This document shows, piece by piece, positions 4,122 through 19,730 of a DNA stretch of 36,004 nucleotides. The notes below the pieces were generated by a model, which was given only the letters and a program-made list of their open reading frames with translations, had not been told where the DNA came from and did not search any database. Numbering within the stretch: the stretch's first letter is position 1; each line of letters begins with the position of its first letter. The translations under genes were made by a program, and so were the position numbers. Source of the stretch: Chloroflexota bacterium (lineage in GTDB: Bacteria > Chloroflexota > Limnocylindria > Limnocylindrales > CSP1-4); NCBI GenBank assembly GCA_003171255.1, contig PMYK01000030.1:1-36004 (forward strand), given 5' to 3'.

Positions 4122-4427
4122 TCATCCTGTGCACCTCAGGATGCCCGCAGGAAACGATCGTATCGTTCCGCGGTACGAGTACCGCAGATACGGCCCTTCC
4201 ATCTTGTCGGGGTAGGGTCCACCCGGGATGGTCGTGATCGACAGCGGCAAGTCGCAGACTCGCGGCTTGAATATGCCCTGCGGGCCCAGAAGTGGAACGC
4301 GCTGGCCTTCGAACGCGAAACCCTGCTCGAGAGCCGCACGCGATAGGACGTCGCCGTGCAGTTCGACCTGCTTGCTCGGCCAGTCAAACGCGGCCAGCCG
4401 TACTGCTAGATCCCCCTGCCCTGCCAT
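4122..4427 (-). pseudogene. truncated HNH-type endonuclease, N-terminal part only
   Basis: The 101 residues resemble the N-terminal recognition region of bacterial proteins annotated as putative HNH restriction endonucleases. In these, a block like GQRVPLLGPQGIFKPRVCDLP followed by PLSITTIPGGPY and then Y-x-YRGT precedes a longer domain and a C-terminal HNH motif. Here the match stops right after YSYRGT, and about 14 unrelated residues lead to a stop. No HNH motif is found in any frame before the carbonic anhydrase start. I read it as a decayed remnant, with the C-terminal two thirds deleted. A short functional protein cannot be excluded. The family assignment is from memory of the motif, not a search. 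Confidence 0.6.
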
Positions 4428-4449: not shown

Positions 4450-7400
4450 CTACGCCCGCAGCGCCTCGCGCGGCACGCGGACGATCAGGCGCACGATCGA
4501 GCCGTCGCGAGCGAAGACCGACTCGCTCGCCGAAAGGGACAACTCGGCTTCGGTGATCAGCTCGCTTGGCCGGGACGGTCGATCGACGACGACTGACGCC
4601 CGGTCGGACAGCTCGTAGCAGATCGGAGTCCCGCAGTAGGTGAAGGCGAGGCTGCCGGCCGGCAGATCCCACGACCGATCCTGGCCGCCCACGTCGACAT
4701 AGTCGAACCGGTACGGCGCGGCCTCGAACTCGGAGCGGTGCAGGAGCCTTGGCGCGAACCGCAGCTTGCCGGCTCGAACCTGAACGCCCAACTCGCCCCA
4801 GCGAGCCAGAACCTCTTCCTTGACGGCGCCCGTCATGCCCGGCTGCTGCGCGCCGCGGTGTCGCGGCGTGTGCGAGTACGGATCGCACGGGAACGCGCCC
4901 TGGACCTCGGCCGACTTGCGGAAGCCAAGGCCGTCGCGGACGTCGTCATAGGCTTCGGCCAGAGCCGCCGCGGCCTTCTCGTCGACCTGACCGGCCTCCG
5001 GGTCGATGGCCGCTTCGTAGCACTCCTGAACGGACAGCAGCAGCTTGGAGACCATATGCCAGTAGATGCTGCCGAGGCCCTCGAACATGAAGAACGTTCG
5101 GCTTCGACCGGTGAACTCGCGGTGGTGGAAGAGCCGCTCCCAGAGGGCCAGTGTGGCCTCGCGGGTCGGCCCCTCGACCTTCATCGAATCGAGCCGGCCG
5201 GCCAGATCGATGGCGTTCTTCAGGTCGGCCTGGAAGTGCCACTCGGCGTGGCTGTCGCGGACGAAGATTCGCGGGTCGTCGAGCGGCGGCTGGGTGGTGA
5301 TCGTGTTCCGGCTCAGGAACGACGGCAGATCCATGTCCGGGTAAAGCAGATAGCTGTGCTGGTCGGCCCGATACAGGTCGCCTACGCGAAGCGCACGCAG
5401 GACGGCCAGCTCCTCGTCGGGCGTCAGCAGCCCAGCACCGAGGACGGCGGCCTGGCCCTCGAGCATCTCGTACAGATGGTTGACGTGAGCCCGCTTGCCT
5501 TGGACGTGGAGCAGGTTGTAGCCGTGATACAGGCCGTCGCTGCGGCGGTTCACCTTGATGGCTCGGTCCAGGACCGGCAGGGCGCGGCCCACGAAGTCGC
5601 GCAGTGCGGTCATCGACACTGCCCGCCGGGTCCGCAACCCATCGGCGTAGACCGCGACACGATGCTCCTCGCCGGCTCGACCGGCCGCCACGAGGAACTC
5701 GTAGCGCGCGGCGTCGTCGAAAGTCTCGGGCGCGGCGCCGTAGATCGCCGTCAGCCGCTCCAGCAGGGCGGCGACCGGCTCGGACAGCTCGACGTTCTCC
5801 GAGCCCGCGAACAGCTCCTCGCAGAAGCGCAGGTAGCGCCGCGCGTGGTAGACCGTCACCATCGACAGTCCCCAGCCCACCAGGGCGTTGTTTGCGTCAT
5901 TCCATTCGGGGCGCTGGGTGTTCAGCCACGTTCCGCCATCGGGGACGAAGTTGGTCAGCTTGACCAGCAGCGGCACCAGCAGCTTCTCGGCGAGCGACAC
6001 GAGCAGGACGTCGCCCTTTGAGTCGGTAATGAGCTTGCCGTCCGCCCCAACTTCGGCCGCCGCAGCCATGAGCTTGCCGTGCGCCGGACGGTCGAAGGCG
6101 ATCGTGCTGTGCGGCTCGGCCAGCATGGCGTCCAGTCCGGCGATCCGGTAGGGCACGTTGGCGTAGGCGTACTCGCGCCTGTTGAGCCACGACGAGAGCA
6201 CTCCCGGGTGAAGCCGCTCCTCGATCTCGAGCAGCCGCAACAGATAGATGATCTGGTGGTCGCCCCAGTAGCCGGAATGACTCCACGGATCGGTCGGATC
6301 GGGCACTTCCCAGTCGACGCCGCCCTGGCGGCTGATCCGGTAGGGGTTGTAGCCGTCGGCGGTCGACGAGTTCAGGAAGACCGCGACCATCTGCTCGAGG
6401 TAGTCCGGGAAGCTCTGCGCGAGCGTCTCCCAGTTCTGGAAGATGTCACGCCAGTTGCCCTGATAGCCGTAGATCGGCTCGCCGTTCTCGCCGCGGAGAT
6501 GGATGGAGAAGTGGTTCCAGGGCCGGCTCGGATCGCCATGGCGCCGGCTATACATCAGCGGCAGGTAGGTGCCGCAAACCCGCTTGAGCTGGGGATCGCC
6601 GTTGGCGTCCACGGCGGCACGGAGCGTCTCGAGGGACATCTTCTCCGGCAATGCTGCCAGCCAGCTCTCGACCCGGGCGTGCAGCCGGGTGTTCTGGGCC
6701 TTCAAGAAGGTGTCGAGATCCCGGCGCGGGAAGCTGTAGGAATCGCGGAAGGTGCCACCGCGCATGCAGTTGAAGAGCACGCTCCCGAAATGGTGGACGG
6801 TGGCGGCTTCGTCGGCCGTCTCCTGCAGGCCATCGGCGGCGGCGATCAGCTTGCGCACGCCGTCGCGATCGGCCGCAATGGCGGCCCGAAGCTCGCGTTC
6901 GAGGAGGTCGGGGCTGGCAAGTCGATCGCGCAGCTTGATGAGCTGGGCGTGGTCGAGGGCGGTGTCGGCGACGGTGAACCACTCATGGCTCGCACCTTCG
7001 GCGAGTTCGACGCGGTCGGCCGCGAGGTACGACCCGTATTCCCCTCGGATCTCGGTCTCGAACGGAATCTCATCGCCCGCCCCGAACGCCGCGACGCGCC
7101 GATCCGACAGGCAGACCCGAGGATGACCATGACCGACCGACCAGGCGCAGGTCGCCCGGAGCGACTCGTAGGGTAGGGGCCGATCCGCCAACGCCGCGTT
7201 CATCGTGTAGATCGCGAGCGGGACGTCGGGTAGGACCTCGTGGCGCATGTAGCCAACGGCCAGATAGCTGATGCTCGAGTACGCCTCCTGGCCAACGCCG
7301 GCCGGCAGGAGCATCCGCAAGCCGTCGAGATAGTCCACCTGCACCGACCCCGAGCCGATGTTTTCGAGCACGGCATGCCGTACGAGGCCGAACTCCGCGC

Positions 7401-7830
7401 ACGTGCTCAGGCTCCAGGTGAACCGCAGGCCCAGTTCGTCGTTGACTTCCTCGAAGATCACGTTCGTACCGAGGACGTGCTTATAGAGGTTGCGGGTGAT
7501 CGACGGCGCATGGGTTTCCATGCGCCACGGTTCCCAGAGCGTCGGGCCCGAACCGCCACGGCTGACGCGGAACGTGCTGAACGAACCGGCTCCATCGGGA
7601 TGGCTGAGCAACTTGTCGACGGTCTCGTACGGGAACATGGCGCCATCGGGATCTACGCGACCTGCGGTGAAAGGCGAGTTGCTGCCGACGAAGAGCCAGG
7701 CGTCGCTGTCGCTGACGATGGTCATGAAGAACGGCTCGAGTCGGTCGACGTCGCGGATGCACGCGTACCGCTGCCCCGCCAGGGTGACGAACTCGTGCCG
7801 GGCCGGTGCCTGCGCGTGCCTCTGAGCCAA
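4450..7830 (-). CDS. large alpha-toroid carbohydrate-active enzyme candidate
   Basis: This 1126-residue protein has no signal peptide and is probably cytoplasmic. The N-terminal ~330 residues are beta-rich and aromatic (for example a GSNSPFTAGR stretch and LWEPWRMET), like the beta-sandwich that precedes the catalytic (alpha/alpha)6 barrel in GH94, GH36/63 and related enzymes. The central part is helical with conserved-looking acidic/aromatic patches: NWRDIFQNWE, STADGYNPYRI, DWEVPDP and GYWGDHQIIYLL (E508 and D524 by this start). I cannot assign a CAZy family. The frame is open to 8031, but upstream codons overlap the GH116 gene. I chose TTG at 7828-7830 because GAGG lies 8 bases before it; the start is uncertain. 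It is the last sugar gene, 71 bases after the GH116 gene, so hydrolysis or phosphorolysis of the same substrate is likely. Confidence 0.75.
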   Translation of the reverse strand: MAQRHAQAPARHEFVTLAGQRYACIRDVDRLEPFFMTIVSDSDAWLFVGSNSPFTAGRVDPDGAMFPYETVDKLLSHPDGAGSFSTFRVSRGGSGPTLWEPWRMETHAPSITRNLYKHVLGTNVIFEEVNDELGLRFTWSLSTCAEFGLVRHAVLENIGSGSVQVDYLDGLRMLLPAGVGQEAYSSISYLAVGYMRHEVLPDVPLAIYTMNAALADRPLPYESLRATCAWSVGHGHPRVCLSDRRVAAFGAGDEIPFETEIRGEYGSYLAADRVELAEGASHEWFTVADTALDHAQLIKLRDRLASPDLLERELRAAIAADRDGVRKLIAAADGLQETADEAATVHHFGSVLFNCMRGGTFRDSYSFPRRDLDTFLKAQNTRLHARVESWLAALPEKMSLETLRAAVDANGDPQLKRVCGTYLPLMYSRRHGDPSRPWNHFSIHLRGENGEPIYGYQGNWRDIFQNWETLAQSFPDYLEQMVAVFLNSSTADGYNPYRISRQGGVDWEVPDPTDPWSHSGYWGDHQIIYLLRLLEIEERLHPGVLSSWLNRREYAYANVPYRIAGLDAMLAEPHSTIAFDRPAHGKLMAAAAEVGADGKLITDSKGDVLLVSLAEKLLVPLLVKLTNFVPDGGTWLNTQRPEWNDANNALVGWGLSMVTVYHARRYLRFCEELFAGSENVELSEPVAALLERLTAIYGAAPETFDDAARYEFLVAAGRAGEEHRVAVYADGLRTRRAVSMTALRDFVGRALPVLDRAIKVNRRSDGLYHGYNLLHVQGKRAHVNHLYEMLEGQAAVLGAGLLTPDEELAVLRALRVGDLYRADQHSYLLYPDMDLPSFLSRNTITTQPPLDDPRIFVRDSHAEWHFQADLKNAIDLAGRLDSMKVEGPTREATLALWERLFHHREFTGRSRTFFMFEGLGSIYWHMVSKLLLSVQECYEAAIDPEAGQVDEKAAAALAEAYDDVRDGLGFRKSAEVQGAFPCDPYSHTPRHRGAQQPGMTGAVKEEVLARWGELGVQVRAGKLRFAPRLLHRSEFEAAPYRFDYVDVGGQDRSWDLPAGSLAFTYCGTPICYELSDRASVVVDRPSRPSELITEAELSLSASESVFARDGSIVRLIVRVPREALRA

Positions 7831-7901: not shown

Positions 7902-10325
7902 CTAGGTGGCCGTCCTGCTGGCCCCCTGCTGACGAAGCGCATGTTCGATTGCCCAGATCGCCAGCGGCCGCAGGTACATCGCCGCTCGATAGTTGCCGTT
8001 TTGCAGGTACGCTTCCGGCGTCCGGAACCACAGGCCTCGGCCATAGGTTACGGCGAATGCGCCGTGGGCGGTACGCCAGCCTTCATCGACCAGGCCGCGA
8101 CCGATCATGAAGGCCGCCAGTCCATATGTAGTCCCGATCCAGCTTTCGGCCGACTGTTCGGACGACTGGTCGATCGAGCCGTCCGGGCACATCCCGTTGA
8201 CCGCGCCCATGTCGCCGCCGCCGAACCCTAGAACGTTCATTTCGTAGACCGTCCGCAGGGCCGTCAGCACGCGCTCAGGCGCAACGAGATCGCCGAGGCC
8301 GGTCGCGTCCGCGTACCACTGGCCGGCCAGCTGATCAGCCATGACGGAATCCGACGATGCCTCGCCGCTGGTGTCATAGCGGTAGCATCGGCCGTTCCAG
8401 AGCTTCTCCTCGAACGCCACGCTGCCGCGCTCGTGGATCTTTCGGAAACGGGCCACGGCCGCGGCGTCCCCGACGATCTCTCCCAACCGGATCGTGGCGC
8501 GGAGGGCGGCCAGCCAGAGCGCGCCGCTGTAGGCGCTCGGTCCGAGCATGTTCCATGCGTCGTAGGTTTGGTCGGGCTGCCCGTCGTGCTCGGGCAGCCC
8601 GTCGCCGTCCCTGTCGAATCGACCGAGGTAGTCCATCGCCTGCACGACGGCCGGCCACGTCTCGCGCGCGAGGAGTGGCGCCGGCGCCAGAAGCACGTCA
8701 CGCCAGACCTGGAGGACGAACTTGCTGTTCAGGTCCTTCCAGATGTTGATGTCACGCCAGTGGTAGATGTTGGGCCGCAGGAAGGGATCCCCGTGGGGCC
8801 CGCCGAGGTCATGCGGCATCGCACCGCGCACCTTCCACGGGGCCTTTGTGTCCTTCCATCCGGTCTGGACAATCTCTGGGTCGTCCAGATCGACAGTCGC
8901 CGCGAAGTCCCGGGCGACGCCAATCTCCAGCTCTGGCCACAGCAAAAGAAGTGCCCACGAAGCGTAGAAGTTGACGTCGAGGGTGTTGTAGCAGGCGTAG
9001 TCGTAGCACTCGAGGACGGCGAAGTGGCCCAGCGCGTCGTCGGCGGCGCCGGGCTCTCCTGGCGCGGCTGGCTCTCCTGGCGCGGCTGGCGCGGCGGGCG
9101 CCGGAAGGACCGCGCTTCTCCGCGCCGGGTCCTCCATGTTGAACGGCTCGCCTTCGGTCCAGACCGTGCCGCCGTCCACGAGGTAGTACAGCTCGTTGAT
9201 CAGCGCGCTCTTGTACCAGTCGGGTCGAGTGGCATCGGCGAGGATCGGCCCCTGCCAGGCGTCGATCGCCGCGGACCAGTCCTCGCGCTTCGCCAGGGCC
9301 TCGGCACCGATGGCCCAGGCATTCATCCCGCCATGGCCGAAGAACCGCGTATAGCGCTTGTACCAGCACGTCCCGGAGCCGAACTCGACGACGGGCAAAT
9401 CCCAGACGAGGGCGAACGAAACGCGCCTCGTCTCGCCAGGGGCGAGCTCGACCGTAACGGCAATGGCCGCCCCGATGGCTTCGCCCGGTAGGCTGGGCCG
9501 GCCGTCGACCACGTTGTCAAGCTTGCCGTCGGCCGCAAAGTCCGCCCACACATCCGACCCGTCAGCGGCCAGGAAGCGATCGCAGGTCGTCACCTGGACG
9601 CCCGGCTCCTCGCTCGCCATCAGGGCAAGACTGCCGTTCCAGGGCGCATCGGGCAGATCGGAGGGCCCCTGGAGCACGACCCCGGTCAGGCCGTCCATTC
9701 GCACCGAAGCGTTTCGATGCCCGCCCCGCTTGTCCTGCTGCCGATCGCGACCGATGTCGTTCAGCCAGCTGAACATCAGTCCAACCGTCACCGCATCCGC
9801 GCTCGGGTTCTCGATCTCCCACTCGAAGATGCCCACTGGGTAGCTGCTCTCCCGGTGGTTGCCGGGAATGACCGGGCTGAACTGTCGCTGCAACAGCCGC
9901 ACGGGAAGCTCAGACCAGTCGTACTCGAACCACGCATACGGGAATAGACCGTGGTACGTGCCGGCGCCGGCCGGCAGGTCCCAGTTCCAGCTCCGCAGCG
10001 CCTCGGGCCGCGTGGTCGAGAGAACGTGGGCGGACTTGGCCCCGCCCCTGGCCACGAACACCGAGAACTGGTCGGCCGGGATGGTCTCGAAGCGGTGTCG
10101 TCCAACGTCGAGGTGCCATCGGGCGAAGTCCCCGCGATGGGTTCGCCCGATGCTCCCCGCTCCCATGCCGCCGAGCGGCACGCCACCCCACGGGCCGTCA
10201 TCGACGAGCGGCGTGAAGCCGCCCGACACGGCCCTTTCGGGGCCGTCGTAAGGGACCCCGATCGGCCGCCGCCACGCCTGGGAAGCCGGGCGCGGCAGTG
10301 CCTCAGGGTCCCTTGTCAACGTCAT
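7902..10325 (-). CDS. GH116 family beta-glycosidase (GBA2-like)
   Basis: The 807-residue protein matches the bile-acid/non-lysosomal glucosylceramidase family GH116, whose members hydrolyse beta-glucosides or beta-xylosides with retention. An N-terminal beta-sandwich (start of domain GGVPLGGMGAGSIGR) precedes an (alpha/alpha)6 barrel. The nucleophile motif is ECYDYACYNTLDV, with Glu439; the acid/base motif is PDQTYDAW, with Asp589. These sit almost where Glu441 and Asp593 sit in the characterised Thermoanaerobacterium enzyme. ESWIGTTYGLA near the C-terminus is also typical. There is no signal peptide, so it should act on imported substrate. A Pro/Ala-rich linker made of an 18-base duplication lies just before the nucleophile. 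The ATG is 6 bases after the second malG, with only a weak ribosome site, so translation is probably coupled. Substrate unknown: beta-glucoside or beta-xyloside. Confidence 0.9.
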   Translation of the reverse strand: MTLTRDPEALPRPASQAWRRPIGVPYDGPERAVSGGFTPLVDDGPWGGVPLGGMGAGSIGRTHRGDFARWHLDVGRHRFETIPADQFSVFVARGGAKSAHVLSTTRPEALRSWNWDLPAGAGTYHGLFPYAWFEYDWSELPVRLLQRQFSPVIPGNHRESSYPVGIFEWEIENPSADAVTVGLMFSWLNDIGRDRQQDKRGGHRNASVRMDGLTGVVLQGPSDLPDAPWNGSLALMASEEPGVQVTTCDRFLAADGSDVWADFAADGKLDNVVDGRPSLPGEAIGAAIAVTVELAPGETRRVSFALVWDLPVVEFGSGTCWYKRYTRFFGHGGMNAWAIGAEALAKREDWSAAIDAWQGPILADATRPDWYKSALINELYYLVDGGTVWTEGEPFNMEDPARRSAVLPAPAAPAAPGEPAAPGEPGAADDALGHFAVLECYDYACYNTLDVNFYASWALLLLWPELEIGVARDFAATVDLDDPEIVQTGWKDTKAPWKVRGAMPHDLGGPHGDPFLRPNIYHWRDINIWKDLNSKFVLQVWRDVLLAPAPLLARETWPAVVQAMDYLGRFDRDGDGLPEHDGQPDQTYDAWNMLGPSAYSGALWLAALRATIRLGEIVGDAAAVARFRKIHERGSVAFEEKLWNGRCYRYDTSGEASSDSVMADQLAGQWYADATGLGDLVAPERVLTALRTVYEMNVLGFGGGDMGAVNGMCPDGSIDQSSEQSAESWIGTTYGLAAFMIGRGLVDEGWRTAHGAFAVTYGRGLWFRTPEAYLQNGNYRAAMYLRPLAIWAIEHALRQQGASRTAT
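9052..9087. repeat. 18-bp in-frame tandem duplication in GH116 gene
   Basis: Two exact copies of an 18-base unit (9052-9069 and 9070-9087), followed by a partial third. It codes for a Pro-Gly-Glu-Pro-Ala-Ala type linker inserted ahead of the catalytic nucleophile segment. Confidence 0.85.
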
Positions 10326-10331
10326 AGGTGG

Positions 10332-11486
10332 CTACTTCTCGACGCCGGAGATGACCACGCCTCGCATGAACACTCGCTGGGCTACGAAGAAGACGGCCAC
10401 GGGCAGGATCATCGCCATCAGCGAACCCGCCTGGGTCAGAGTGCCGTTGTTCGCGTTGCCGTAGGTGGCGCTGAAAGCCTGCAGGCCGACCGTCATGGTG
10501 GCGAGTTCGGGATGGGCGCTCAGATACACCAGCGGCCCAAAGAAATCGTTCCACGTGAAGAAGAAGTGGAACAGCGAGACGGCGATGATGGCCGGCCAGG
10601 CCTGGGGCACGATGACCGACCACAGGATCCGCAGCGGGTTCGCGCCGTCGAGTTGAGCGGCCTCGTCCAACTCGCGTGGCAGGGTCAGGAAGTACTGCCT
10701 CAAGAGGAAGACGTTGTAGGCGTTTGCAAAGTACGCCGGCACTATCAGTGGTAACCACGTCCCGGTCCAGCCCATGGCCCTGAAGGCGATGTACTGCGGG
10801 ATCAGGAGGACCTGGAACGGCAGCATGATGGTCATGATCAGGATCATGAACATGCCGTTCTTGTACGGGATCCTGAATCTCGCGAAGCCGAACGCGACTA
10901 TCACAGCCGAGCCGACCGCGCCGATCGTTCCGACAATGGCGACGATCAGTGTGTTCCGCAACAGCATCGGGAAGTCGAGGACTTTCAGGACGTCGACGAA
11001 GTTGTCCCACTTCGGGGCCAGAGACCACACCGAACTGAGGCCCCGCCAATTGCCCTGCCACATCACCTCATTCCCGGTCTTAGGGTCGATGAACGTGCTC
11101 TGGACCCGTCCGGGCTTCTCAAGGGCCAGGTTCTCGACAGTCCCATCGGTCATCGGGACCTGATACAGGATGTACGTCGTGCCGTCGGGAGCCGTGTACT
11201 TCTCTGGCGCGGCCGGCCACAGCGGTGCGTTGATCGCGACGATCTGCGTACTGTCCTTGAACGACGTGAGGACCATGTAGAGCAGCGGCAGCAGGAAGAT
11301 CAACGCCATCGAGGCGGTGAACATCGTCAGGCCGAGCTTGGAAGCACCGAACTTGACCGTGCGTGCGCGAGTCGACCTCTTCTTGTATGCCCTCTTGGGG
11401 GCAGCGGTCGTACCGTCGCCAGTGATCTCGAAAAGCTGCTTGGCGGGGCCCTCAATCGCGGGGTCCGGCGCCATGTTGTCGGTCAT
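10332..11486 (-). CDS. sugar ABC transporter permease, MalG type (copy 1)
   Basis: This is the inner-membrane permease of a CUT1 sugar importer (384 residues). About six membrane helices are visible, and the EAA loop that docks the ATPase reads EAAQLDGANPLRILWSVIVP. Between helix 1 and helix 2 lies an extra ~85-residue extracytoplasmic loop (PLWPAAPEKYTAPDG to WDNF), which makes the protein longer than the usual ~280 residues. It is closely similar to copy 2 (11806-12894), with long identical stretches in protein and DNA. The start is ATG at 11484-11486, with GGAGG six bases upstream; an upstream in-frame ATG at 11516 has no such site. The start overlaps the TGA of a decayed malF stub, exactly as copy 2 overlaps the intact malF. 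Its N-terminus is about 22 residues longer and more polar than copy 2. Confidence 0.93.
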   Translation of the reverse strand: MTDNMAPDPAIEGPAKQLFEITGDGTTAAPKRAYKKRSTRARTVKFGASKLGLTMFTASMALIFLLPLLYMVLTSFKDSTQIVAINAPLWPAAPEKYTAPDGTTYILYQVPMTDGTVENLALEKPGRVQSTFIDPKTGNEVMWQGNWRGLSSVWSLAPKWDNFVDVLKVLDFPMLLRNTLIVAIVGTIGAVGSAVIVAFGFARFRIPYKNGMFMILIMTIMLPFQVLLIPQYIAFRAMGWTGTWLPLIVPAYFANAYNVFLLRQYFLTLPRELDEAAQLDGANPLRILWSVIVPQAWPAIIAVSLFHFFFTWNDFFGPLVYLSAHPELATMTVGLQAFSATYGNANNGTLTQAGSLMAMILPVAVFFVAQRVFMRGVVISGVEK

Positions 11487-11634
11487 CGGACACCTCCGGC
11501 GAGAAGCAAGCAGCATTCCGACCTGCGGGAGAACACGGGTTCGGACATCACGACGGCGAACATCATGAGCCGGGCGAGCGCCGAGGCATTACCCATCTTG
11601 GTGTTGGCCCAGCCTTCCTTGTGTACGGATTCGT
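11483..11634 (-). pseudogene. decayed 3' stub of a duplicated malF-type permease
   Basis: The last 45 codons of this open stretch align without gaps to the last 45 residues of the intact malF (12891-13856). Shared blocks include KEGW, MG-x-ASALA, LMM and the terminal AGG-x-R. About half the residues still match; hydrophobic residues have been replaced by Arg, Glu, Ser and Cys, which ruins the last membrane helix. The GGAGGT ribosome site and the ATGA stop/start overlap with the next gene are retained. Similarity fades upstream of about 11634. It is the footprint of a tandem duplication of the malF end plus malG. Confidence 0.8.
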
Positions 11635-11805: not shown

Positions 11806-12894
11806 CTACTTCTCCACGCCAGAGATGACCACGCCTCGCATGAACACCCGTTGTGCGACGAAGAAGATCATCACCGGTACGATCAAGGCGAACAGCGAGG
11901 CCGCCTGAGTCAAGTACCCACTACCAGAACTGGCATACGTGGCGCTGAAGGCCTGGAGGCCAACCGTCATCGTCGCCAGTTCAGGATGCGAGTTCAAGTA
12001 GATAAGAGGAGCGAAGAAGTCGTTCCACGAGAAGAAGAAGTGGAACAACGACACAGCGATGATGGCCGGCCAGGCCTGCGGCACGATCACCGACCACAGG
12101 ATCCGAAGCGGGCTTGCGCCATCAAGCTGGGCGGCCTCGTCCAACTCCCTCGGCAGAGTCAGGAAGTACTGCCTCAACAGGAACACGTTGTAAGCGTTGG
12201 CAAAGAAGACCGGCACTATCAGTGGTAACCACGTGCCCGTCCAGCCAACCGCCCTGAAAGCGATGTACTGCGGGATCAGGAGGACCTGGAACGGCAGCAT
12301 GATCGTCATGATCAGGACAAGGAACAGGCCATCCTTGCCCGGGATCCTGAACCTGGCGAACCCGAAGGCGACGATCGTGGCCGAACTCACCGCACCGATC
12401 GTTCCGATGACGGAAACGATCAGCGTGTTTCTCAACAGCAATGGGAAGTTGAGGACGTCCAGCACCGTCGTAAAGTTGTCCCACTTGATAGAGAACGACC
12501 ATACGGAGCTAAGGGCGCGCCAGTTGCCCTGCCACGTGACCTCAGTGCCGTCCTTGGGGTTGATGAACGTGCTCTGGACCCGTCCGGGCTTCTCGAGCGC
12601 GAGATCCTGGACGGTTCCATCAGTCATCGTGACCTGATATACCGTGTACACTTGGCCATCGCCGGCCGTGTACTGCTCGGGCGTGGCCGGCCACAATGGC
12701 GCGTTGAGCGCCGTGATCTGATTGTTGTCCTTGACCGACGTCAGGATCATGTAGCCGAGCGGCAGGAGGAAGATCATCGCCATCGAGGCGGTGAACAACG
12801 TCACTCCGAGCTTGGAAATGCCGAACCTGACGGTGCGTGCGCGGGTAGACCGCTTCTTGGCAACGCTCGGCAGCGGCATTGCGGTGCCGGTCAT
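11806..12894 (-). CDS. sugar ABC transporter permease, MalG type (copy 2)
   Basis: A 362-residue CUT1 permease that pairs with the MalF protein encoded just upstream. The EAA loop reads EAAQLDGASPLRILWSVIVP, and the final residues RGVVISGVEK are the same as in copy 1. It carries the same enlarged extracytoplasmic loop after the first membrane helix. The ATG (12892-12894) overlaps the malF stop by four bases (ATGA) and has GGAGG a few bases before it, inside the malF 3' end; this is classic translational coupling. Intact coupling to the intact malF suggests this is the ancestral partner and the downstream copy the duplicate, though the order could be reversed by later conversion. Confidence 0.95.
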   Translation of the reverse strand: MTGTAMPLPSVAKKRSTRARTVRFGISKLGVTLFTASMAMIFLLPLGYMILTSVKDNNQITALNAPLWPATPEQYTAGDGQVYTVYQVTMTDGTVQDLALEKPGRVQSTFINPKDGTEVTWQGNWRALSSVWSFSIKWDNFTTVLDVLNFPLLLRNTLIVSVIGTIGAVSSATIVAFGFARFRIPGKDGLFLVLIMTIMLPFQVLLIPQYIAFRAVGWTGTWLPLIVPVFFANAYNVFLLRQYFLTLPRELDEAAQLDGASPLRILWSVIVPQAWPAIIAVSLFHFFFSWNDFFAPLIYLNSHPELATMTVGLQAFSATYASSGSGYLTQAASLFALIVPVMIFFVAQRVFMRGVVISGVEK

Positions 12895-13856
12895 CGCTCA
12901 CCTCCGGCGTAGAAGACCCAGCGAGCCGACGTTCGGAACAGAACCAGTGCTGCGACCACGACGATGACCATCATCAGCCAGGCCAGGGCGGAGGCGTAAC
13001 CCATGTTGTTGTAGGTCCAGCCTTCCTTGTACAGGTTCATGTTGTAGAAGAACGTCGAGCCGCCGGGGTTCCCTCGCCCAAGCGGGTCGATGACGTAGGC
13101 CTGGGTGAAGTACTGCGAGACGCCGATGATGCTGATCAGGATGTTGTAAAAGAGGACCGGCGAGATCATCGGCAACGTCACGTGGCGGAATCGAGCCCAG
13201 GCGCCACCGCCGTCGACTTTGACAGCTTCGTACAGCTCGGTGGGCACTCCCTGCAGGCCGGCCAGGAAGATGAGCATCATGTTCCCGACGCCCCAGATAC
13301 CAAGGAGTACCAAGCCCTGCAGGGCCCAAGCGGGGTCAGAGAACCAGTCCGGCGAGGGCAGCCCTAGGCCGTGAAGGATCTGCGCCAGCCAGCCGGTGCT
13401 GCCGTTGAGGAAGCCCTGCCACACGATCGTGCTGGCTACGAGCGGGATCTGCACCGGCATGAAGAACAGCGTCCGGAAGACAGGTTTGCCCGCGAGAAGC
13501 TTCTGGTTCAGCAGAAGTGCCAGGCCCAGAGCCAGGCAGATCAGCAACGGCACGGACATCAGCGCGAACCTGGCCGTGACGCCAAGCGAACTGCCAACGG
13601 CCCCGTTGTTCAACAGTTCCGACCACATTCGGGCGTAGTTGTCGAGCCCGATGAACTTGATACTTTCCGGGTGAATGATATTGAAGTTCGTGAATGAAAG
13701 CGCCAGCGAGGCAACGATCGGCAGCGCGGTGAACACCACCAGGCCGAAGAGCCACGGCGACAGGAACGCGAGGCCCCATAGCGTCTCGCGACGAGCAAGG
13801 CTCATCTTTCTCTGCGGGGGCGCGTGAACCGATTCCTTGTCTTCGACGATCACCAT
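12891..13856 (-). CDS. sugar ABC transporter permease, MalF type
   Basis: A 321-residue CUT1 permease subunit. An N-terminal cytoplasmic segment is followed by six predicted membrane helices (first: GLAFLSPWLFGLVVFTALPI). The EAA loop reads EAVKVDGGGAWARFRHVTLP. Length is normal. The ATG at 13854-13856 is preceded by GGAG with a 7-base gap. It lies 91 bases after the binding-protein gene, across a strong hairpin, and overlaps malG copy 2 by four bases. With the binding protein it forms the import complex. No ATPase subunit is in the window, as is common for CUT1 systems that share an MsmK/UgpC-type ATPase. Confidence 0.95.
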   Translation of the reverse strand: MVIVEDKESVHAPPQRKMSLARRETLWGLAFLSPWLFGLVVFTALPIVASLALSFTNFNIIHPESIKFIGLDNYARMWSELLNNGAVGSSLGVTARFALMSVPLLICLALGLALLLNQKLLAGKPVFRTLFFMPVQIPLVASTIVWQGFLNGSTGWLAQILHGLGLPSPDWFSDPAWALQGLVLLGIWGVGNMMLIFLAGLQGVPTELYEAVKVDGGGAWARFRHVTLPMISPVLFYNILISIIGVSQYFTQAYVIDPLGRGNPGGSTFFYNMNLYKEGWTYNNMGYASALAWLMMVIVVVAALVLFRTSARWVFYAGGER

Positions 13857-13947: not shown

Positions 13948-15492
13948 CTAGCTGCCGGCCGCGAAGTCAGCCTGCAGAGCCGTGGTCACGTCCGAGAAGA
14001 CCTTGGTCATATCAAGACCCTGGGTCGTGGCGAGGGTCGAGAAGACCTTGCCGTAATCGTCCATGGCCTTGATGTAGTTCGGCATCTCAGCCTCGTGGTT
14101 CGGGCTCTCGGCATAGCCTTCCATGTCGAGGGCGACTTGCCAGTTGACCACGTTGCCGGGGAACTGCTTGGCGAACGTCGGGTCGACGACCGTCTTGAAG
14201 TACCCAAGCTGGTCGCCAATGGCCGGAGTGCCGCCGTAAAGCGCCATCAGGTCGAGGCGGGTGACGATGTAGGCCTGAACCTCGAACGCGCGCTGGGCAA
14301 CGGCCGAGTTCTTGTCGATGGTGAAGGTGTCGATGTTGATCGGGGCAGTGGTCTTGCCGGCCGCGTTGGCGGGCATGACGGCGATGTCCCACTTCTTGAA
14401 GGCGCCGGGCTTGGTGGCGTCAGCCGACATGCAGCAGATGTACCACTGGAACATGTGGCCCATCGCAGCATGGCCGGAGGAGAGCACGTTGCCCTTGGCC
14501 AGCAGATCCGAGTTGCGCTCGGTGTCGTTGGCGATGAAGTGGTCTTTCCAGATGCCGTTGTAGTACCAGGTCCAAGCGGTCTTCCAGTCATCCGGGAACT
14601 GAGCGGTCTTCTTGTCCGCAGCAACGAACGAGCCGCTGCCGAACGCGGAGGCCATGCGGCGGCCTTCGGTCCACTGGAACTCGAAGCCGAACTGCACCTG
14701 ATTGGCCGGATCGAAACCAGCCTGGGTCGCGTCCTTGCCGTTCTTGTCAACGGACAGGAGCATGGCGATGTTGCGGACGGTGTCCCAGGTCCAAGCGACC
14801 TTGGAACCATCAGGCATCGTGTACTGGTCCCCAACCTTCTGCGGGGGGTACTTCAGGCCGGCCTCGTCGAAGAGGTCCTTGTCGAAGAAGATGTAGGACG
14901 GGTACACCGCGTACGGGATGCCGAGCAGTGCGCCAGTCTGGCCATCCTTCATGGTGTCGACCAGGCTCTGCGGATACTTGGTCATGTCGTATCCGGCCTT
15001 GGCGATAAGCGGGGTCATGTCAATGAACTCACCGGCGAAGCCGGCGCGTCCCTTGATGCCGACCGGGCCGATCAGGTCAGGGGCGTTGTTCGACGCGATT
15101 TCCGTCTTGAGGATGTCAGTCGCGGTGTTGTTCTGGACGATCTCGAGCGAAAGGACGATCGGCATGACGCCGTCAGTTCGCTTGTCCTGCAGCGCGTTGA
15201 AGTCGCTGACGACTGTCTGCTGCAGAGTGATCTGCGCCGGGTTGGTGCCCGAGCCGAGGCCAACGAACCAGCGGACGAGGATGTGATCCTTGCCGCCGAT
15301 GCTGACGATCTGGCCGGACTTGCCGGCCGGAGTGCCGACGACGAGCGGCGTCGGTGTTGCCACCGCGGTAGACGCCACCGGTCCGGTGGACGCAACCGGG
15401 GCTGTCGTAGCGGTCGAGCCGGAGCATGCGCTGACTGCCAGCACGGCTACCGACGCGAGAGCTGCGATCTGCGAAAAACCTCTCCTACCCAT
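13948..15492 (-). CDS. extracellular sugar-binding lipoprotein (ABC importer)
   Basis: A 514-residue solute-binding protein of the CUT1 importer. The N-terminus is a lipoprotein signal: RR, a hydrophobic stretch, then a lipobox ending VSA-C with Cys23 as the lipidation site. A Thr/Ala/Pro-rich tether to about residue 55 follows. The mature part has the aromatic and Asp/Gly-rich pattern of large type-1 sugar binders (for example WTWDTVRNIA and FQWTEGRRMASAFGSG). I chose the ATG at 15490-15492 because it starts right at the signal peptide and has GGGAG upstream; the frame stays open to 15564, but those codons read as leader DNA. It lies between the LacI-type regulator and the permeases, so it captures the substrate for the two cytoplasmic enzymes at the end of the locus. 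Confidence 0.93.
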   Translation of the reverse strand: MGRRGFSQIAALASVAVLAVSACSGSTATTAPVASTGPVASTAVATPTPLVVGTPAGKSGQIVSIGGKDHILVRWFVGLGSGTNPAQITLQQTVVSDFNALQDKRTDGVMPIVLSLEIVQNNTATDILKTEIASNNAPDLIGPVGIKGRAGFAGEFIDMTPLIAKAGYDMTKYPQSLVDTMKDGQTGALLGIPYAVYPSYIFFDKDLFDEAGLKYPPQKVGDQYTMPDGSKVAWTWDTVRNIAMLLSVDKNGKDATQAGFDPANQVQFGFEFQWTEGRRMASAFGSGSFVAADKKTAQFPDDWKTAWTWYYNGIWKDHFIANDTERNSDLLAKGNVLSSGHAAMGHMFQWYICCMSADATKPGAFKKWDIAVMPANAAGKTTAPINIDTFTIDKNSAVAQRAFEVQAYIVTRLDLMALYGGTPAIGDQLGYFKTVVDPTFAKQFPGNVVNWQVALDMEGYAESPNHEAEMPNYIKAMDDYGKVFSTLATTQGLDMTKVFSDVTTALQADFAAGS

Positions 15493-15536
15493 TAGGCTCC
15501 CTTTCCTATCCCCTTGGTAACGCAATCCGTGACTCC

Positions 15537-15548
15537 TGAAACGTTCGA
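15537..15548. promoter_or_regulatory. possible LacI-type operator
   Basis: TGAAACGTTCGA has the AACGTT core with a central CG typical of LacI/CcpA-family operators. It sits in the 92-base gap between the regulator and the binding-protein gene. Symmetry outside the core is poor and no clear -35/-10 pair was found, so this is a weak candidate. Confidence 0.3.
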
Positions 15549-15584
15549 AAAGCGCGCGCCGCACGATTGGCCGCGCTCCGTCGC

Positions 15585-16616
15585 TCAGTTCTTCCCTGTC
15601 TGCGGCCCTCCACTCGACTGCCTGACTATGAGTTCGGTTTCCAGGACGACACGGCGGAGCACGTGGTCCCGCGCATCGACCGTCTGGAGCAGGACGCTGA
15701 CGAGTTCGCGACCCATCACTTCCATCGACTGGTGCACGCTCGAGAGAGCGGGCTGAGTCGACAGGGCGATGATCGAGTCGTCGAAGCCGACGACCGCAAC
15801 GTCCTCGGGCACTCTCCTTCCGGCCGCGTACAGCGCCGAAAGCGCTCCCGCAGCCATCAGGTCCGATGCGGCGAATACCGCATCGATGTCCGGGCAGCGC
15901 TGGAGGAGGACTTCCATGGAGCGCTGACCACCCTCGCGGGTGAATTCGCCACTCTCTTCGAGGTCCGCATCCGGCGTCCGCCCGGCGGCCCGTAGCGCGT
16001 CGTGATAGCCCAACCGGCGCGTAACGCCGGCCGGCATATCCAGCGGACCGGTGATCGTGGCGATCCTGGTCCGCCCCTGCTCGATAAGGTGCTTCACGGC
16101 GGCAAAGGCACCGCCGTGGTTGTCGTTGTCGACGTAGCTGACCCGAGTGCCGCGAGGCGGCTCGCCGCCCACGACCACCGGGACGCCATTCGACTGGAGG
16201 TATTCCGGGAGGCCGTCATCGCCGTGCAACGAGAACAGGATCACGCCCTCGACGTGGCCACCGGTCAGGTAGCGCGCGGCGCGGCGTTCCTCCTCTGGAG
16301 ACTGTGAGATGACGAGAACTAGCTGCATTTGGCGCGCGGCCAAGCCGGCGCTTATGCCACGCAGGACCTCCGCGAAGAACGGGTCACCGAAGATGCGCCC
16401 GGTCGGCTCGGCAATCACGACACCGATCGAGTCAACTCGGCGGGTGACGAGGCTGCGAGATATCCGGTTGGGCACGTAACCGAGCTGGGCAACCGCCCGC
16501 TCGACGGACTCCCGGGCTTCGACCCTGACCGAGGGGCTCCCGTTCACGACCCGTGACGCGGTCGCGCGTGAGACGCCGGCAGCTCGTGCAACTTCCTCGA
16601 GCGTCGGGATACTCAC
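15585..16616 (-). CDS. LacI-family transcriptional regulator
   Basis: A 343-residue regulator with an N-terminal LacI helix-turn-helix (PTLEEVARAAGVSRATASRV) and hinge (LGYVPNRISRSL), followed by a periplasmic-binding-protein-like sugar sensor domain. The end of the sensor has the usual AVVGFDD motif. The start is GTG at 16614-16616, with GGAGG ten bases upstream; the frame is open to 16688, but the upstream codons precede the HTH without family resemblance. It is the first gene of the sugar locus and most likely represses the binding-protein/permease/enzyme genes until the sugar is imported. The inducer is unknown. Confidence 0.93.
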   Translation of the reverse strand: MSIPTLEEVARAAGVSRATASRVVNGSPSVRVEARESVERAVAQLGYVPNRISRSLVTRRVDSIGVVIAEPTGRIFGDPFFAEVLRGISAGLAARQMQLVLVISQSPEEERRAARYLTGGHVEGVILFSLHGDDGLPEYLQSNGVPVVVGGEPPRGTRVSYVDNDNHGGAFAAVKHLIEQGRTRIATITGPLDMPAGVTRRLGYHDALRAAGRTPDADLEESGEFTREGGQRSMEVLLQRCPDIDAVFAASDLMAAGALSALYAAGRRVPEDVAVVGFDDSIIALSTQPALSSVHQSMEVMGRELVSVLLQTVDARDHVLRRVVLETELIVRQSSGGPQTGKN

Positions 16617-16699
16617 TGAGAACGCACCTCCTGCTGGTCGCTTCAGGGTGCAGACAAGCCATGCCCGACGGCCAGGGGCCGCCCGCATGCTAGGGTCCT

Positions 16700-18285: not shown

Positions 18286-19641
18286 CTATATGCCCGGCTT
18301 CGGCTTCTCCACGATCAGCAGAGTCGCCGATTCGGGCGGCAGCGTGATGCTCCCAGACACAAACGGGCCTGTTCCGATCTGAACGGCCGTGTGAGCTTTG
18401 TCGAAGAGCCACGTTTCAGCGGACGAGCCCGCCCAACCGATGACTGTGATTGGCTTCGTCTGAGGCGTCGACGCCAGGTTGACGATCATGAGCGCGAGCG
18501 TGCCGTCAGATCGCTTGGAAGCGTAGATGCTCACCAGCGGATCGTCCGAGACGGCTCGAACCAGCTCCGTCCCGAAATGCTGGTACATGACGTAGTCGTA
18601 GTAGATCGGGTTGACGGCGCTGGTGCCGACGATGCCGTACTGGCTCGCCAGGGCGAATTGGTCGACCATGTCGACCTTCTGGTCGATCAGCCGGCCGAGC
18701 ACGTCCGCGAACCAGATCGCGTTCATGTGCGAGTCCATCGACCAGTCGGTGCCGGCGTTGGCGACCCAGCTCGAGTTGATCTCGGTGACCGCGATCGGAA
18801 GGTCCTTGCCCGTCTGCTCCTTGATCAGGGAGCGGAGGGCCGGAATGATCTGCTTCCACTCCGTGCCGCCGACGCGCAGGTCGTCAACCGTGATGGGGGT
18901 CTGCGTGTCCTTGGGCAGCGGATACCTATGAATGGACACGATGTCGACCAGGTCGCCATTCGCCTTGAGGAACGACGCCAGCCACGCGACCCGGGCCTTC
19001 ATGTACGTGTCGCTGGGATTGGCGGTGAACTGACTCACGTCGGGACCGATCAGCTTGATCGCCGGGTCGACAGCACGCATCGCCTGCGCAAACTCCCGCC
19101 AGTCGGTGTTGTAGGTGTCCACGTTGTAGCCCGGGATGTCACCGTTGGCGTAGAGATCCGCCTCGTTGCCGATGCCCCAGTACTTGACGGCGTAGCCCAT
19201 GGTCACGTTCACGTACTTGACGAGATCGGCCGCCTTGGCCGAGGTGCTGCCCTTCAGTCGGACGACGATGCGCGGCTCGGCGCCGAGCGTCCGACAATAG
19301 GCGATGAACTGATCGACCTGGTAGGTCTGGAGGTCGTACTGGTCGCCCCAGTTGCCGCCTGGGAAGGTGAGCGTGGTCAACTTCGCCGCTTCGACCTGGG
19401 GCTGGAGCTCCAGCCGCACGGCCAGCCACGGGCCGTCATTGCTGCCGTAGACCAGTGGGCTGATCGGGCCCCGGTCCGCGCCTGCGTCCACGAAGAGCCC
19501 CGCCGTCGGCGTCGGGGCGGCGGTGGGACCGGGCAGCGGTGTGGAAGCGGGCGTCACGGTCGAGCCGCCGCAACCGGCCACGAGAGCCACGATCGCGACT
19601 GAAGCGGCCGCACCGCGCCATATTCGGGGTCCACCGGACAT
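18286..19641 (-). CDS. secreted lipoprotein glycoside hydrolase, GH51-like (clan GH-A)
   Basis: A 451-residue surface lipoprotein: a hydrophobic signal and a lipobox ending VAG-C (Cys24), then a Thr/Pro linker and a (beta/alpha)8-type hydrolase. Clan GH-A features are the early PLVYGSN strand, the FPGGN-x4-Y block, the acid/base motif WGIGNE (Glu160), and the nucleophile strand AVTEINSSW (Glu287). The spacing and the FPGGN and AADLVKYVN blocks resemble GH51 arabinofuranosidases and endoglucanases; GH39/GH44 are alternatives. A small C-terminal beta-domain follows (ALMIVNLASTPQTKPITV). The ATG at 19639-19641 has GGAG six bases upstream; an in-frame ATG at 19653 is possible. It ends 4 bases from azlD (convergent) and diverges from the MFS gene. 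It may release sugar outside the cell. Confidence 0.82.
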   Translation of the reverse strand: MSGGPRIWRGAAASVAIVALVAGCGGSTVTPASTPLPGPTAAPTPTAGLFVDAGADRGPISPLVYGSNDGPWLAVRLELQPQVEAAKLTTLTFPGGNWGDQYDLQTYQVDQFIAYCRTLGAEPRIVVRLKGSTSAKAADLVKYVNVTMGYAVKYWGIGNEADLYANGDIPGYNVDTYNTDWREFAQAMRAVDPAIKLIGPDVSQFTANPSDTYMKARVAWLASFLKANGDLVDIVSIHRYPLPKDTQTPITVDDLRVGGTEWKQIIPALRSLIKEQTGKDLPIAVTEINSSWVANAGTDWSMDSHMNAIWFADVLGRLIDQKVDMVDQFALASQYGIVGTSAVNPIYYDYVMYQHFGTELVRAVSDDPLVSIYASKRSDGTLALMIVNLASTPQTKPITVIGWAGSSAETWLFDKAHTAVQIGTGPFVSGSITLPPESATLLIVEKPKPGI

Positions 19642-19730
19642 CTCACGCTCCATATTTCCCAGGTTCGACTCGAGTTGGCTTCCGAACGAACAGTCAAGCG
19701 CGATCGGCCCATCTCGCGGATCATCTCACG

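Follow-up and report, generated by a model that had tools for sequence, protein, structure and literature searches.

A predicted GH149 beta-1,3-glucan phosphorylase next to a GH116 beta-glucosidase in a sugar-uptake operon of a Chloroflexota bacterium

Results

Operon organization

The window, that is, the whole 36,004-nt stretch of Chloroflexota DNA analyzed here, carries on its minus strand an operon in the order LacI, solute-binding protein, MalF-type permease, MalG-type permease, second MalG-type permease, GH116 and GH149. The LacI-family regulator at its head (15585–16688, minus strand; PF00356, PF13377) is followed by a 538-aa sugar-binding lipoprotein of solute-binding protein family 1 (13948–15564, minus strand). 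Pfam search of this lipoprotein gave no match. It was assigned from weak PDB matches to sugar-binding proteins and from its relative L041:2845-4401, which is 42% identical and matches PF01547 (SBP_bac_1).

The MalF-type sugar ABC permease (12891–13856, minus strand; PF00528, best NCBIfam model MalF) precedes two MalG-type sugar ABC permeases (11806–12894 and 10332–11516, both minus strand and PF00528). The tandem MalG-type proteins are 81% identical over 350 aa. They look like a duplication within the genus, since two copies are also found in the same-genus genomes G011 and G017 and one in G009. In both copies a long loop follows the first membrane helix.

The next gene encodes an 807-aa GH116 beta-glucosidase (7902–10325, minus strand). 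The protein has the catalytic and N-terminal Pfam domains of the family (PF04685, 1e-137; PF12215, 3e-98) and matches the TxGH116 structures (such as PDB 5BVU) with an E value of 1e-218. Its E439 and D589 align with TxGH116 positions 152 residues apart, which is the spacing of the nucleophile E441 and the acid/base D593 (PMC10167657); the nucleophile Glu and the acid/base Asp are thus both in place. The operon is completed by the gene studied here (4450–7830, minus strand), which the initial annotation had correctly placed at the end of a sugar import operon next to GH116.

Two small observations were made at the flanks. A 101-aa ORF between GH149 and carbonic anhydrase (4122–4427, minus strand) has no Pfam match and may be a gene remnant. 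Near the operon, with an AzlC-like gene between, lies a weak GH39/GH79-like protein (18286–19653; 30 bits to PF01229), possibly a further glycosidase.

Reading frame of the 1126-aa protein

The frame on the minus strand is open from 8031 to 4450, and its outermost GTG would give 1193 aa. Read from a TTG at 7830, the protein has exactly 1126 aa, the length first annotated. We regard this TTG as the likelier start codon because GAGG stands 8 nt upstream, because the gene then stays clear of the GH116 stop at 7902, and because the match to GH149 sets in within 10–15 residues. The GTG at 8031 is disfavored, since a start there would precede any homology and overlap GH116. Since 34 relatives from many phyla align with the 1126-aa protein over its whole length at 40–79% identity, it is a conserved protein, and a chance or non-coding frame is ruled out. 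The four sequence blocks quoted earlier are all present, namely NWRDIFQNWE (459–468), STADGYNPYRI (489–499), DWEVPDP (506–512) and GYWGDHQ (520–526).

Family assignment by sequence and fold

The initial annotation could name no CAZy family for the protein and considered a new family of glycosidase or phosphorylase. It proposed an HMM search and a structure comparison as checks, and a full-length match to a characterized CAZy family as evidence against novelty. The HMM search was divided in its outcome. No Pfam model matches the 1126-aa protein, which may be the reason that it seemed orphaned. The NCBIfam model NF058639, a curated equivalog for GH149 1,3-beta-D-glucan phosphorylase with a cut-off of 1150 bits, matches with 1304.9 bits and is covered from position 5 to 1133 of 1134. 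When PDB was searched with phmmer, the GH149 structure 6HQ6 (Pro_7066) was matched over residues 13–1120 (E value 1.1e-268, 897 bits). GH161 structures gave a weak match, with an E value of about 1e-8.

The AlphaFold model of the protein (pLDDT 88.6, pTM 0.91) superposes on GH149 structure 6HQ8 over the full chain, with a TM score of 0.95 at 2.7 Å and 39% identity over 1146 columns. TM scores were 0.69 for GH161, about 0.3 for GH63 and 0.21 for GH116. GH94 structures, among them laminaribiose phosphorylase at 0.58, reached 0.58 or lower with identities of about 12% or lower, and so GH94 is not the closest match. We took the GH149 fold to consist of an N-terminal beta-sandwich, a helical linker, an (alpha/alpha)6 core, a C-terminal jelly roll and GH149-specific inserts; the model has this fold, in the order beta, helix, beta. 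The helical toroid behind a beta-rich N-terminal domain, and the resemblance to GH94 phosphorylases, had been read correctly. The matches in NCBIfam, PDB and fold rule out a new CAZy family, and the fold scores rule out a hydrolase of GH63, GH116 or GH94 type. By its sequence and predicted structure, the protein is an ordinary member of the already described family GH149 and a predicted phosphorylase. GH149 thus supplies the full-length match that had been named as evidence against a new family.

Active site and surface glucan site

For Pro_7066, the structure paper (PMC6771811) gives the active-site residues as R470/D471, W651-N652-D653, E951 and H959. We mapped them by alignment, after correcting for the 19 residues by which a tag shifts the numbering of the PDB chain, and found every one of them in the 1126-aa protein. 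R461-D462 (6445–6450, minus strand) corresponds to R470/D471, the RD motif of the donor (sugar 1-phosphate) site. W643-N644-D645 (5896–5904, minus strand) forms the WND catalytic loop, in which D645 is the predicted catalytic acid equivalent to D653. E917 (5080–5082, minus strand) is a predicted donor-site contact equivalent to E951, and H925 (5056–5058, minus strand) is predicted to recognize phosphate as does H959 (PMC6771811 for all roles). All 44 aligned GH149 rows have the same amino acid at each of these positions. The protein had been described as lacking a known catalytic signature, and this does not hold: the quoted NWRD contains the RD sugar-phosphate motif, and E-WND at 642–645 contains the catalytic aspartate of clan GH-Q.

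The surface glucan site of Pro_7066 is different. Its residues Y841, Y993, E994, E838, K831 and R1062 correspond here to H825, D962, D963, A822, R815 and H1031, and so both stacking tyrosines (Y841, Y993) are replaced. We did not count this loss against GH149 membership because conservation of this site drops in bacterial members of GH149 that are more distant (PMC6771811).

Related loci and distribution

The order LacI, solute-binding protein, permeases, GH116 and GH149 is found again in two genomes of the same genus, G011 and G017, each of which has both MalG copies. In G011 the GH149 copy (L099 near 6925) is apparently short of about 43 residues, which we attribute to an assembly gap, as two N stand at the junction. 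G009, also of this genus, has the same arrangement with its single MalG copy, LacI not being in view, and in G003 the GH116-GH149 pair stands at the start of a contig. G004 and G013 have GH149 with no GH116 detected; both of these same-genus genomes are only 69% complete. In another genus of the same family (G021), the locus contains a solute-binding protein, permeases, LacI, GH116, GH16 and GH149, with GH16 standing between GH116 and GH149. More distant Chloroflexota loci have a solute-binding protein with two permeases and two GH16 and two GH3 genes adjoining GH149 (L028), or a solute-binding protein with permeases and one adjoining GH3 (L041). Breakdown of beta-1,3-glucan usually involves GH16 and GH3 (PMC5827456), and these sister loci therefore support a beta-1,3-glucan pathway.

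Of 61 relatives, 11 have a detectable GH149, and among 400 Chloroflexota genomes 13 have one above the NF058639 cut-off. The tree puts the protein in a deep clade (SH-aLRT 100) shared by members of its own family, Armatimonadota and Akkermansiaceae. The other Chloroflexota GH149 proteins have a different position, for the most part close to Actinomycetales and Trueperaceae. All rows from Bacteroidota, to which Pro_7066 is reportedly nearest, also stand outside this clade. On NF058639 the protein lies in a lower range of scores (about 1245–1308 bits) than the other Chloroflexota proteins (about 1480–1564 bits). Because of this separation from the Bacteroidota rows and the lower family-model scores, the acceptor preference of the clade may differ. 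We found no characterized member of the clade in this analysis.

Gene content of the source genome

The source genome (2.56-Mb assembly, 91% complete) was checked family by family. It has two GH16 matches, and by eye both frames begin with lipoprotein-like leaders. There are also three GH3, four phosphohexomutase-type, one MalK-type ATPase and four GH94-type matches. A GH94-type match (L119, G000:C35:2944-4218) lies within an open frame of 2888 aa, which is as long as a cyclic beta-1,2-glucan synthase-like protein.

Discussion

Family membership, a complete active site, the fold and a conserved operon are established for this locus. Judged from sequence and model, the 1126-aa protein is very probably a GH149 beta-1,3-glucan phosphorylase in a LacI-controlled operon for laminari-oligosaccharide uptake. 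A phosphorylase acting alongside GH116 was one of the options first put forward, and it agrees with the predicted GH149 assignment.

Pro_7066 (6HQ6/6HQ8) resembles the protein in full-length sequence and fold, RD motif, WND loop, donor glutamate and phosphate histidine. It differs in its 39% identity, in its surface glucan site and in its host, a likely flavobacterium rather than a member of Chloroflexota. GH161 PapP and GH94 laminaribiose phosphorylase share the clan GH-Q fold and the catalytic plan, but their match in sequence and fold is much weaker and their chain-length preference in the literature is different.

In the Type I GH149 clusters of Proteobacteria, an ABC transporter, a LacI or AraC regulator and the phosphorylase are found together (PMC5827456). 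Transporter, LacI and GH149 also stand together here. The Type I cassette (COG0747/0601/1173) brings ATPases of its own, whereas the transporter of the present locus is of MalF/MalG type and has no dedicated ATPase, and GH116 is an addition; the locus is a variant of Type I with a MalFG-type transporter and GH116. In the literature searched we found no pairing of GH116 with GH149, the single paper returned for the two, on a beetle gut, being unrelated, and TxGH116 is not described there together with GH149. Nor did that literature yield a paper on Limnocylindr- with laminarin.

Could the clade have kept the GH149 fold and phosphorylase chemistry while its substrate (linkage, chain length or acceptor) shifted together with the GH116 partner? 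The deep separate position of the clade, its lower scores and the unconserved surface site are consistent with such a shift, as is a GH116 partner in place of the GH3 of L028 and L041, given that TxGH116 cleaves cellobiose as well. The donor and catalytic residues are identical, however, and the clade is set apart by only seven substitutions in columns that are conserved elsewhere, with no large indel of its own. The GH16 gene beside GH116-GH149 in G021 also points to beta-1,3-glucan. We consider a shifted substrate unlikely. We would give slightly more weight, though still little, to a related proposal, in which an uncharacterized deep GH149 clade (a Chloroflexota family, Armatimonadota, Akkermansiaceae) has a shifted acceptor or linkage preference and is paired with a GH116 glucosidase in an undescribed type of laminarin-scavenging operon. 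Membership in GH94 or GH161 instead of GH149 would fit the common clan fold and the weak GH161 sequence match, but TM scores of 0.69 (GH161) and 0.58 or less (GH94) against 0.95 make it highly implausible. A new hydrolytic glycosidase family acting with GH116, for which the lack of a Pfam match could be cited, is just as hard to credit given the full-length GH149 match in sequence, fold and active site and a fold much nearer to GH149 than to GH116 or GH63.

With the GH149 phosphorylase reading, a full route of import and phosphorolysis can be drawn, and we infer each of its steps beyond the family assignment. The oligosaccharides would be made outside the cell by a GH16 laminarinase whose gene lies elsewhere in the genome. 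The binding protein and permeases would import them, powered by the MalK-type ATPase encoded elsewhere. The likely job of GH149, predicted from its sequence and model, is cytosolic phosphorolysis of the imported laminari-oligosaccharides to glucose 1-phosphate. By the family activity, it would use inorganic phosphate to remove the non-reducing-end glucose, the products being alpha-glucose 1-phosphate and a chain shortened by one unit; this reaction has reportedly been shown for two family members. Phosphoglucomutase would then feed the glucose 1-phosphate into glycolysis. By analogy with TxGH116, the GH116 neighbor probably hydrolyzes the short remainder left by GH149 to glucose, or it may act on the same oligomers. 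It is a plausible partner for laminaribiose and short remnants because TxGH116 cleaves laminaribiose with an efficiency near that on cellobiose (113 and 178 per mM per s, respectively; PMC10167657).

The locus opens no new enzyme family, and GH116 is a slightly unusual partner enzyme. The founding papers on GH149 list Bacteroidetes, Proteobacteria and Euglenophyceae, and the present host lies outside Proteobacteria, Bacteroidetes and Euglena, where the family was first described. The finding places a predicted phosphorylase of laminarin-type oligosaccharides, accompanied by an ABC transporter and a GH116 enzyme as its partner, in uncultured Chloroflexota.
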